From NCBI GenBank assembly GCA_903928915.1, contig CAIYSL010000075.1, positions 1 through 49,431 of the forward strand: DNA of 49,431 nucleotides, written 5' to 3'. Source of the stretch: an uncultured Syntrophobacterales bacterium. GTDB lineage: Bacteria; Desulfobacterota; Syntrophia; Syntrophales; UBA5619. The notes under the pieces are model-generated. The model saw nothing but the letters and a program-made list of their open reading frames with translations. It ran no database searches and had not been told where the DNA came from. This document shows positions 28,880 through 32,945 of the stretch, one piece after another. Made by a program: the position numbers and the translations under genes. Position 1 is the first letter of the stretch. The number at the start of each line of letters is the position of its first letter.

Positions 28880-30568
28880 GTGAACGGGTATTTTTCCAAA
28901 GATACGCTCGACCGATCGGCTGAGCTCACCCGGCAGTGGGAAGAAGAAATCCGGCGGGCCGCCGCGAGCGGGAGCGCCGGCGCCCCGCGCCGGTCCACCG
29001 TCTCCGACCTGGAGATCAAGCGCCTCTACACCCCCGAGGACATCGCCGGACTCGACTTCAGCCGCGACATCGGCGCCCCGGGCGCTTTTCCCTTCCTGCG
29101 CGGCAACCAGCCCACCGGGTACCGCGGCCGTACCTGGACCTTCCGCATGTTCTCCGGCATGGGAAGCGCCCGGGACACCAACGCCCGCTGGCATATGCTC
29201 CTCAGGGAAGGGCAGACGGGGCTCAGCACCGCCTTCGATTTTCCGACGCTCATGGGCTACGACAGCGACTCGCCCAAGGCGCGCGGCGAAGTGGGCAAGT
29301 GCGGCGTGGCGATCGACACCCTCGACGATTTTCTCACCCTGATGGAGGGGATCCCGATGGACCGGGTGACCACCTCCATGACGATCAACCCGCCCGCCAC
29401 CGCGCTCTGGGCGATGTACTGCGCCGCCGCGGAGAGCAAGGGGGTGCCGCTTGCGGCGATCGGCGGGACGATCCAGAACGACATGCTCAAGGAGTTCATC
29501 GCCCAGAAGACCTTCATGTGCCCCCCGGAGCCGTCGGTGCGGCTGATCAGCGACACGGTCGAGTTCGGGGCGCGGCATGTCCCGAAGTGGAACACGATCA
29601 GCATCAGCGGCTACCACATCCGCGAGGCAGGCTCCACGGCCGTGCAGGAGCTGGCCTTCACGCTGCGCGACGGGATCGAGTACGTCGAGGACGTGGTGCG
29701 GCGCAAGGGGCTGGCCGTGGACGCATTCGCGCCGCGGCTCTCCTTCTTCTTCAACTCCCACATCGATTTCTTCGAGGAGATCTGCAAGATGCGGGCGGCC
29801 CGGCGGATCTGGGCGCGGGTGATGCGCGAGCGGTTCGGCGCGAAGGATCCCCGTTCCTGGTGGATGCGGTTCCACACCCAGACGGCCGGCTGCTCGCTCA
29901 CCGCCCAGCAGCCCTACAACAACGTCGTGCGGACCGCGCTCGAGGCGCTCGCCGCGGTCCTGGGCGGGACCCAGTCGCTCCATACCAATTCCCTCGACGA
30001 GGTCTTGTGCCTCCCCTCCGACCACGCCGTGGAGATTGCGCTGCGCACCCAGCAGATCATCGCCGAGGAGACGGGGGTCGCCGACACGATCGACCCGCTT
30101 GCCGGCTCCTATTTCGTCGAGTCCCTGACGAACGAGATGGAGGCGAAGGCCTGGGAGTACATCGAGAAGATCGACGCGATGGGAGGGATGCGGGCGGCGA
30201 TCGATAAGGGGTTCCCGCAGTTGGAGATCGCCGACGCCGCCTACCGCTTCCAGCAGCAGATCGACGCCCAGGAGAAGGTGATGGTGGGGGTGAACAAGTA
30301 CGCCACCGACACGAAGCAGGAGATCCCCGTGGTCGACATCGACGAGCGGGTCGAGGAGGAGCAGATCAGCCGGCTCAAGACGGTGAAGCAGCGGCGCGAC
30401 TCCCGCGCCGTCCGGCGGCACCTCGACGACCTGCGGAACGCCTGCCGGAGCGGCGAGAACGTGATGCCCTTCTGCATCGCCGCGGTGAAGGAGCGCGCCT
30501 CGGTGCAGGAGATCTGCGACGTCTACCGGGAGGTGTTCGGGGAATACCGGGACCCGGGGCTGTACTGA
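28880..30568 (+). CDS. icmA: B12-dependent acyl-CoA mutase large subunit, isobutyryl-CoA-mutase-like
   Basis: 562 residues, TIM-barrel substrate domain of the methylmalonyl-CoA mutase family, without the B12 domain (a separate gene downstream). In methylmalonyl-CoA mutase, Tyr89 and Arg207 bind the substrate carboxylate. Here the matching positions, 118 residues apart as in the family, are Phe91 (FRMFSGMG) and Gln209 (EFIAQKTF), the pair found in isobutyryl-CoA mutase (Phe80/Gln198). Length also fits IcmA (about 566). Core motifs TAFDFPTLMGYDSD and SISGYHIREAG are intact. The start is GTG 28880 with GGGGAAGG upstream; a TTGACA box lies at 28751 with only a fair -10. It would interconvert isobutyryl-CoA and butyryl-CoA; the symbol is by this inference. 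Confidence 0.85.
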   Translation: MNGYFSKDTLDRSAELTRQWEEEIRRAAASGSAGAPRRSTVSDLEIKRLYTPEDIAGLDFSRDIGAPGAFPFLRGNQPTGYRGRTWTFRMFSGMGSARDTNARWHMLLREGQTGLSTAFDFPTLMGYDSDSPKARGEVGKCGVAIDTLDDFLTLMEGIPMDRVTTSMTINPPATALWAMYCAAAESKGVPLAAIGGTIQNDMLKEFIAQKTFMCPPEPSVRLISDTVEFGARHVPKWNTISISGYHIREAGSTAVQELAFTLRDGIEYVEDVVRRKGLAVDAFAPRLSFFFNSHIDFFEEICKMRAARRIWARVMRERFGAKDPRSWWMRFHTQTAGCSLTAQQPYNNVVRTALEALAAVLGGTQSLHTNSLDEVLCLPSDHAVEIALRTQQIIAEETGVADTIDPLAGSYFVESLTNEMEAKAWEYIEKIDAMGGMRAAIDKGFPQLEIADAAYRFQQQIDAQEKVMVGVNKYATDTKQEIPVVDIDERVEEEQISRLKTVKQRRDSRAVRRHLDDLRNACRSGENVMPFCIAAVKERASVQEICDVYREVFGEYRDPGLY

Positions 30569-30724
30569 CCCCCCCCTCACCCCGACCCTCTCCCGCGAGG
30601 GGAGAGGGAGCTGAGCGGTCGGAACCTCGGTATCCCGGCTCTCTCCCCGCGCGGCGCATACCCTACCGTTCCCCTCCCCAGGCGGGAGGGGATGAAGGGG
30701 AGGGGGAACACTACAGGAAACGCA
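30569..30724. repeat. GC-rich palindromic repeats between mutase subunits
   Basis: This 156-base gap inside the operon contains a palindrome at 30586-30608 (CCCTCTCCC, GCGA loop, GGGGAGAGGG) preceded by a CTCACCCCGA flank, and the 35-nt element at 30671-30705 that recurs on the other strand at 17073-17107 with two mismatches. The final 20 bases carry AGGAAA, the ribosome site of the next gene. Confidence 0.7.
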
Positions 30725-31129
30725 ATGGCCGAGAGAACGATACGGATCATGGTGGCCAAGCCGGGCCTCGACGGCCACGACCGGGGCGCCCGGGTGCTGG
30801 CCCGCAGTTTTCGCGATGCGGGCTTCGAGGTGATCTACACGGGCTGCCACCAGAGCCCCGAGCAGATCGCCGCGGCGGCGATCCAGGAGGACGTGGACCT
30901 GGTGGGGCTGAGCTGCCTCTCCGGCGCCCACCGGTACCTCTTTCCCCGGGTCGTGGAGCTCCTGAGGCAGCAGGGAGCGGCGGACATCACCGTCATCGGC
31001 GGCGGGATCATCCCCGATCAGGACTTCGCGCTCCTCACCGACGCCGGCATCAAGGCGATCTTCACCCCGGGCGCCAAGCTCGACGCGATCGTCGCGTGGG
31101 TCCGGACGAATATCAAACCGCGGACGTAG
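30725..31129 (+). CDS. icmB: Acyl-CoA mutase small subunit, B12-binding
   Basis: 134 residues, the size of IcmB (about 136). A single cobalamin-binding Rossmann domain: GLDGHDRG (12-19) is the D-x-H-x-x-G motif, whose His displaces the lower ligand of B12, followed by GLSCLSGAH and VIGGGIIPDQD (about 84-108). ATG 30725 follows AGGAAACGCA at good spacing. The gene lies 156 bases after the large subunit and three bases before the MeaB GTPase gene, the usual mutase order. Whole fused MCM small subunits would be much larger, so this is a split enzyme. Confidence 0.9.
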   Translation: MAERTIRIMVAKPGLDGHDRGARVLARSFRDAGFEVIYTGCHQSPEQIAAAAIQEDVDLVGLSCLSGAHRYLFPRVVELLRQQGAADITVIGGGIIPDQDFALLTDAGIKAIFTPGAKLDAIVAWVRTNIKPRT

Positions 31130-32110: not shown

Positions 32111-32381
32111 GGAGCACGCCGGCGGCCGGGGGCGGGACATCCTGCCCGACTCGGATCTTTTTCCGACCCTGCGCATCCTCGCTTCGCTGCCGGAAAACAA
32201 CTCGCGCCTGCCGGCGCTCAAACAGGTTTTCCGGCGGGCGCTCCGCTGCGGTGGCAGGGTACCCCGTAAAAATCTCCAATGAGCTCGTCCAGGCTGTCCC
32301 GCCCCCGGCCGCTACCTGGACTCACGGGAGAGCAATAGATTCCGAAGAGAGTGGTATGCAGGGACGACGCGAGGTTATGTG

Positions 32382-32945
32382 ATGGATGACGCCGAAGATC
32401 CGCGCAAGGCCGTTCTGGAGAAATACCGGAAGGGACTGGTCCAGGTCTACACGGGGGAGGGCAAGGGGAAGACGACCGCCGCCTTCGGGCAGGCGCTGCG
32501 CGCGATCGGCCAGGGCTACCGGGTCTGCGTGATCCAGTTCATGAAGGGCCGCAAGTACGGCGAGTGTCTCGCCGTGGAGCGGCACCTCCCGAACCTCACC
32601 GTCCACCTCTGCGGCCTCGACAGCTTCGTGATGCGGGAAAATCCCGCCCCCCTCGACGTCGAGCTTGCCCGGAGCGGTCTCGAGCTTGCCCGGAAGGCGA
32701 TCTCCTCGGGCGCCTACGACATGGTCGTCCTGGACGAGATCAACGTGGCCGTGGACTTCCGGCTGATCCCGCTTGCGGACGTCGTCGAGCTCATCCGGAG
32801 CAAACCCGCCCGCCTCGACCTCATCCTCACCGGCCGCAACGCCGCGCCGGAGGTGATCGCGCTCGCCGATACGGTGAGCGACATCCGGGAGGTCCGGCAC
32901 CACTACCGGGCCGGGATCAAGGAACGCGCCGGGATCGAATACTGA
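32382..32945 (+). CDS. cobO: Cob(I)alamin adenosyltransferase (CobA/BtuR/CobO type)
   Basis: 187 residues. P-loop variant GEGKGKTTAAFGQALRA (about 25-41), VIQFMKG and VVLDEINVAVDF (about 117-128), all hallmarks of CobA-type ATP:corrinoid adenosyltransferases. It makes adenosylcobalamin, the cofactor of the mutase encoded just upstream. The ATG at 32382 is preferred because GAGG lies seven bases before it; a GTG one codon earlier is also possible. The 271-base gap from MeaB contains an inverted repeat GCCGGAAAAC/GTTTTCCGGC, but no B12-riboswitch core could be found. Confidence 0.92.
   Translation: MDDAEDPRKAVLEKYRKGLVQVYTGEGKGKTTAAFGQALRAIGQGYRVCVIQFMKGRKYGECLAVERHLPNLTVHLCGLDSFVMRENPAPLDVELARSGLELARKAISSGAYDMVVLDEINVAVDFRLIPLADVVELIRSKPARLDLILTGRNAAPEVIALADTVSDIREVRHHYRAGIKERAGIEY

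Follow-up and report, generated by a model that had tools for sequence, protein, structure and literature searches.

Syntrophothermus lipocalidus is reported to metabolise isobutyrate and butyrate (PMC3035303), and its four-gene cluster Slip_0757-0760 has been assigned to an isobutyryl-coenzyme A (CoA) mutase that serves the isomerisation of isobutyrate to butyrate (PMC5017805). The same paper notes homologous clusters in further prokaryotes, 'Ca. Caldisyntrophus' among them, and a relationship of the genes to one group of sulfate-reducing organisms. Isobutyryl-CoA mutase genes are also described in other Syntrophomonadaceae (PMC6687939, PMC8674449), and the fused enzyme IcmF is stated to be widely misannotated as methylmalonyl-CoA mutase (MCM) (PMC7764203, citing Cracan). 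We analysed a stretch of DNA of 49,431 nucleotides (the window), which is contig CAIYSL010000075.1 (C75) of the 4.34-Mb, 141-contig genome of an uncultured Syntrophobacterales bacterium (GCA_903928915.1). Its forward strand encodes, in this order, a mutase large subunit, a B12-binding small subunit, a MeaB-type GTPase and a CobA-type adenosyltransferase. On sequence grounds, we consider it highly likely that this cassette specifies an isobutyryl-CoA mutase that consists of two subunits and depends on adenosylcobalamin, together with a MeaB and an adenosyltransferase of its own. Such a cassette has already been published in an isobutyrate-degrading syntroph, and the window holds a further member.

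The predicted enzyme would shift the thioester group between adjacent carbons, interconverting isobutyryl-CoA and n-butyryl-CoA, and would thereby lead isobutyrate- or valine-derived carbon into butyrate-type beta-oxidation, or operate in the reverse direction. MeaB would act as the chaperone of the mutase, and the adenosyltransferase would supply its cofactor. Substrate, direction and physiological role in the host organism are what we infer.

Comparison with the S. lipocalidus cassette

The four proteins of the window cassette are homologous to those of S. lipocalidus, with 78, 75, 65 and 62% identity, and the two mutases share a Phe/Gln residue pair and a common clade (see below). The window cassette is orthologous to the published cluster, the S. 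lipocalidus locus having been equated with Slip_0757-0760 partly by gene content. The two differ in gene order, which is adenosyltransferase, mutase, B12-binding subunit and MeaB in S. lipocalidus, whereas the adenosyltransferase gene follows that of MeaB in the window, and in host, a member of the Bacillota in one case and a Syntrophales-type genome in the other.

Specificity residues of the large subunit

The positions equivalent to Tyr89 and Arg207 of MCM govern the choice between charged and uncharged substrates. Residues of the large subunit were mapped through phmmer alignments to solved structures and through a 159-row MAFFT alignment of 156 distinct locus sequences and three PDB chains (1req, 2xij and 4r3u); five hits spanning fewer than 420 query residues were dropped, so that 205 hits gave 200 rows and 156 distinct sequences. 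We use what we take to be the literature numbering of MCM, of 2-hydroxyisobutyryl-CoA mutase (HCM), of IcmA (Phe80/Gln198) and of the Tyr243/His244 pair, from which the numbers printed in the alignment are shifted by one position in 1req and by 11 positions in 4r3u. In both kinds of alignment, Phe91 stands opposite Tyr89 of PsMCM and Ile90 of HcmA, and Gln209 opposite Arg207 of PsMCM and Gln208 of HcmA. An initial annotation of this DNA had placed Phe91 and Gln209, 118 residues apart, at the specificity positions; the alignment with MCM and HCM bears this out, since the two residues are equivalent to Tyr89/Arg207 and do not fall on unrelated columns.

The Phe/Gln pair was present in all 95 distinct orthologous sequences (the window included, the other 94 being 73-86% identical to the window mutase). 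A second set of 22 loci, which overlaps the first in part and counts one gene twice, showed the pair in every locus. This conservation excludes a chance origin of the pair. Gly80, Met90 and Ala118 were likewise each found in 95 of 95 orthologous sequences, and Thr117 in 94; Met90 and Thr117 are shared with sequences outside the clade, the former with those of Ilyobacter, Acetoanaerobium and Deinococcus, the latter with HCM. Few residues were known to contact the acid specifically, and simple replacements had not yielded active enzymes, according to the excerpted part of PMC2847961. Among the 61 other homologues, Tyr/Arg was observed in 34, another pair in 25 and Phe/Gln in two, which are encoded on Haloterrigena and Deinococcus plasmids. 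Both plasmid mutases (L176, haloarchaeal; L175, Deinococcus) are named 'methylmalonyl-CoA mutase family protein', and acyl-CoA dehydrogenase and haloacid dehalogenase genes occur in the vicinity of the former.

The window mutase belongs to the same family as MCM (PDB 1req and 2xij, and L001 of its own genome) and retains the Tyr243/His244 pair. Family models give it that name: the sole NCBIfam model above its cut-off for the large subunit was TIGR00641, 'methylmalonyl-CoA mutase N-terminal domain', which, together with the naming of the plasmid Phe/Gln homologues, agrees with the expectation that automatic annotation would call the enzyme MCM. That it is indeed an MCM with unusual residues is nevertheless highly improbable, as every one of the 95 orthologous sequences has Phe and Gln instead of Tyr89 and Arg207, and as the genome has a separate Tyr/Arg mutase, a single chain of 710 aa. 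This gene, on contig C78, adjoins open reading frames (ORFs) that resemble, by eye, MeaB and methylmalonyl-CoA epimerase.

HCM was the best PDB match of the large subunit (532.1 bits). HcmA (PDB 4r3u; copy L182 on a Methylibium plasmid) also has split subunits, with MeaB and an adenosyltransferase near by, and shares with the window mutase Thr117 and the Gln at the Arg207 position. However, Ile90 and Asp117 of HCM correspond to Phe and Ala in each of the 95 orthologous sequences, and the HCM rows form a clade of their own in the tree. It thus appears quite unlikely that the cassette encodes an HCM, or a mutase of another branched acyl-CoA such as pivalyl-CoA, in a comparison set that excludes the pivalyl-CoA mutase of Xanthobacter.

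A mutase on a Streptomyces plasmid (L216) was identified as IcmF by the equivalog model (1918.4 bits against a cut-off of 1500). Met-Phe, Thr-Ala and Gln occupy its specificity columns, as in the window mutase, and its B12 domain, GTPase and mutase all have counterparts in the window cassette. Nonetheless, L216 is a single fused chain, whereas the window has separate subunits and a separate MeaB, and the sequences are far apart. The window large subunit is not an IcmF: its genes are separate, and it scored 324.7 bits with NF045497 against the cut-off of 1500. Separate genes for the large and the B12-binding subunit correspond to the IcmA/IcmB type. Two split Streptomyces plasmid mutases (L179 and L180) carry Tyr/Arg.

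Phylogeny

A 40-row tree sampled 11 of the 95 orthologous sequences, that of the window among them, together with S. lipocalidus; an earlier tree of 85 rows had included 22 of the 95. The window mutase, its orthologues and S. lipocalidus formed a single clade with support of 100/100, and the MCM rows (100/100) and HCM rows (100/100) grouped separately from it. The order of the deep groups was left unresolved in the 40-row tree, on which the distribution of Phe/Gln, Tyr/Arg and other pairs requires at least three state changes.

Distribution and gene neighbourhoods of the orthologues

Within the order sample, orthologues of at least 74% identity were detected in 40 of 61 genomes (the host genome included; three have only fragments), and orthologues of at least 73% in 21 of 63 genomes of the Syntrophomonas order. 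Among the matches listed, the best 80 named loci belonged mostly to Syntrophaceae, Smithella and other Syntrophales or deltaproteobacterial metagenome-assembled genomes, followed by Syntrophomonadaceae, Syntrophomonas and Candidatus Formimonas. Loci L184, L207, L220, L221, L222 and L259, among others, stand outside the analyses reported here.

Neighbouring genes were clustered across 94 orthologous loci of unequal length. In some loci the ORF picking lets long antisense ORFs displace real genes, as happens with the mutase of the window itself, and the counts are therefore lower bounds: mutase in at least 83 loci, MeaB in at least 72, B12-binding subunit in at least 62, adenosyltransferase in at least 35, crotonase-type protein in at least 22, acyl-CoA dehydrogenase in at least 14, CoA-transferase in at least 10, thiolase and HpaB-family protein in at least nine each, and 3-hydroxybutyryl-CoA dehydrogenase in at least six. 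In five of the 94 loci (L048, L050, L071, L074 and L078), a same-strand beta-oxidation run continues into the mutase cassette, in the order CoA-transferase, acyl-CoA dehydrogenase, thiolase, 3-hydroxybutyryl-CoA dehydrogenase, crotonase, acyl-CoA dehydrogenase, mutase, B12-binding subunit and MeaB, as checked gene by gene in L071. Among representatives of this run, the thiolase and the 3-hydroxybutyryl-CoA dehydrogenase scored above an NCBIfam cut-off, the crotonase and the acyl-CoA dehydrogenase only below specific cut-offs, and the CoA-transferase, named by eye, had no NCBIfam match.

The HpaB-family protein, which by eye resembles 4-hydroxybutyryl-CoA dehydratase, is encoded near the cassette in nine of the 94 loci (L031, L046, L053, L067, L082, L083, L091, L096 and L104); in six of these loci its gene stands some 2 kb upstream in the same orientation. 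An orthologue of 79% identity (L072) is accompanied by beta-oxidation genes on a contig of 4146 bases whose title is Methanoregulaceae archaeon; a misbinned bacterial contig seems likelier than an archaeal gene.

The presence of orthologues in Smithella and Smithellaceae loci bears on another reading, in which the main substrate is a related uncharged branched acyl-CoA, as in the conversion of 2-methylpentanoyl-CoA to hexanoyl-CoA, the skeleton step of Smithella-type propionate dismutation to acetate and butyrate. The proteins of this pathway are not yet identified according to the excerpt of PMC13248872. The beta-oxidation kit of the five loci (CoA-transferase, thiolase, dehydrogenases and crotonase) would also serve such a route, and one Smithella locus (L067) has the mutase directly behind thiolase and crotonase-type genes. 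Additionally, all 95 orthologous sequences have Gly80 where 1req, 2xij and 4r3u have Met, in a stretch that presumably lines the acyl-CoA pocket. On the other hand, the orthologues spread far beyond Smithella, in the proportions given above for the two orders, S. lipocalidus uses isobutyrate, and a simple mutase scheme worked out by hand fails to reproduce the full 13C pattern that the original Smithella study is said to have found. We therefore regard this reading as quite unlikely. In a proposal that is just as improbable, the highly conserved Phe/Gln mutase of Syntrophales, with Smithella among them, would be the carbon-skeleton step of dismutation, the isobutyryl-CoA reaction being a side or shared activity and Gly80 widening the pocket for a longer chain. 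No open-licence paper was found that links Smithella with isobutyryl-CoA mutase, or with a six-carbon condensation of propionate. The cassette is a concrete candidate for this unsolved pathway.

Weighing isobutyryl-CoA mutase in the host genome

The assignment as isobutyryl-CoA mutase, also made in the initial annotation, fits the residues, the comparison with IcmF, the orthology to the S. lipocalidus cluster and the beta-oxidation runs near some orthologues. Several observations weigh against it. The closest solved structure is that of HCM and not of an isobutyryl-CoA mutase; the IcmF branch was too long to place, in a tree without the Streptomyces IcmA; and the excerpts of open-licence literature that we searched yielded no activity data on this clade. 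Genes for acyl-CoA dehydrogenases and crotonases abound in genomes of such fatty-acid degraders, and the neighbour counts are raw figures, uncorrected for background. Among 20 window ORFs scanned with Pfam (a subset of the ORFs), none encoded a beta-oxidation enzyme, the scanned neighbours being chemoreceptors and envelope or secreted proteins. Finally, the genome has a match to methylmalonate-semialdehyde dehydrogenase above the cut-off (538.5 bits against 448.5), and therefore valine need not pass through the window mutase; none of 17 matches to the 3-hydroxyisobutyrate-dehydrogenase model reached its cut-off. The suggested link from valine or isobutyrate to butyrate is thus strengthened by the beta-oxidation runs of some relatives and weakened by the alternative valine route and by the gene content of the scanned part of the window.

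The host genome also contains homologues of 3-hydroxybutyryl-CoA dehydrogenase (best 385.5 bits against a cut-off of 408) and 17 acyl-CoA-dehydrogenase matches, some of which are pieces of one gene. Butyryl-CoA oxidation in this genome is possible, to judge from its predicted proteins.

Other mutase genes were noted in the genome and its order. Two partial genes lie at contig ends (C21:1-1016 and C43:1-890; L003 and L004), and they are not identical where they overlap, with differences at several residues. The C43 piece has, by eye, Tyr and Arg, and the C21 piece starts past both positions. One of the two is followed by genes for a B12-binding subunit and an aconitase-family protein, and the other has a malate/lactate-dehydrogenase-family gene as its neighbour, again by eye. 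Three genomes of about 2 Mb from the same order (G031, G047 and G034) gave 14, 15 and 11 mutase matches, an unusual expansion. Among the order-sample paralogues, 21 of 47 have neither Tyr/Arg nor Phe/Gln, and Asn replaces the His of the GYH motif in L150, L151, L153, L154, L160, L161, L164 and L168.

Organisation of the cassette and the window

The cassette proteins were named with NCBIfam models and their cut-offs (Table 1). MeaB and the adenosyltransferase had been predicted to follow the mutase genes in the same direction, and both do, TIGR00750 scoring above and TIGR00708 just below its cut-off.

Table 1. Genes of the mutase cassette and codons of key large-subunit residues in the window
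Feature	Coordinates	Strand	Basis
Acyl-CoA mutase large subunit (IcmA-type), 562 aa, GTG start	28880..30568	+	TIGR00641, 755.3 bits (cut-off 303.8)
B12-binding small subunit (IcmB-type), 134 aa from ATG 30725	30725..31129	+	TIGR00640, 164.5 bits (cut-off 57.45)
MeaB-type GTPase chaperone, 325 aa	31133..32110	+	TIGR00750, 327.5 bits (cut-off 240.75)
Cob(I)alamin adenosyltransferase, CobA type, 188 aa	32379..32945	+	TIGR00708, 164.9 bits (just under cut-off 167.75)
Gly80 codon	29117..29119	+	Alignment; Met in 1req, 2xij and 4r3u
Met90-Phe91 codons	29147..29152	+	Alignment; Phe91 (TTC, 29150-29152) opposite PsMCM Tyr89
Thr117-Ala118 codons	29228..29233	+	Alignment; Ala118 opposite HCM Asp117
Gln209 codon (CAG)	29504..29506	+	Alignment; opposite PsMCM Arg207
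Tyr245-His246 codons	29612..29617	+	Alignment; conserved MCM pair, which we take to be Tyr243-His244

The small-subunit ORF is listed with 145 aa, open from ATG 30692, and its 134 aa assume a start at ATG 30725. The subunit sizes given in the initial annotation thus hold for the large subunit and, with this start, for the small one; as evidence for isobutyryl-CoA mutase, size was rejected, because a split Tyr/Arg enzyme of Ilyobacter has subunits of 558 and 131 aa. The Ilyobacter mutase gene adjoins epimerase and carboxylase/decarboxylase genes.

A GC-rich palindromic stretch (30569-30691), whose core is unique in the window at up to three mismatches, separates the genes for the two subunits. 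Rfam at gathering cut-offs gave no match across the whole window. Scans of 28700-33200 yielded no promoter site and four terminator sites (mean of 2.2 in shuffled sequences), and a structure model was poor (mean predicted local distance difference test score, pLDDT, of 63.6, with segments 26-93 and 205-214 below 50); none of these three results was used for interpretation.

The cassette is isolated in the window, because it is flanked upstream by genes for chemoreceptors and a Cache-domain protein and downstream, on the opposite strand, by a gene for a TPR/OmpA protein (Pfam). The upstream genes, three for methyl-accepting chemotaxis proteins and one for a single-Cache-domain protein, stand in series at 23263-28747; two chemoreceptors and the Cache protein were recognised by Pfam and the third chemoreceptor (27149-28747) by eye. 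Further downstream, 34393-38265 encodes a reprolysin-like metalloprotease of 1290 aa with Thr-rich stretches, probably secreted.

Implications

Under the name of methylmalonyl-CoA mutase, this highly conserved cassette would stay hidden. The residue set Gly80, Phe91, Ala118 and Gln209 would help annotation to separate the clade from MCM. Correct naming changes the predictions of isobutyrate and valine degraders in digesters and sediments, and helps to avoid false calls of the methylmalonyl-CoA pathway of propionate.

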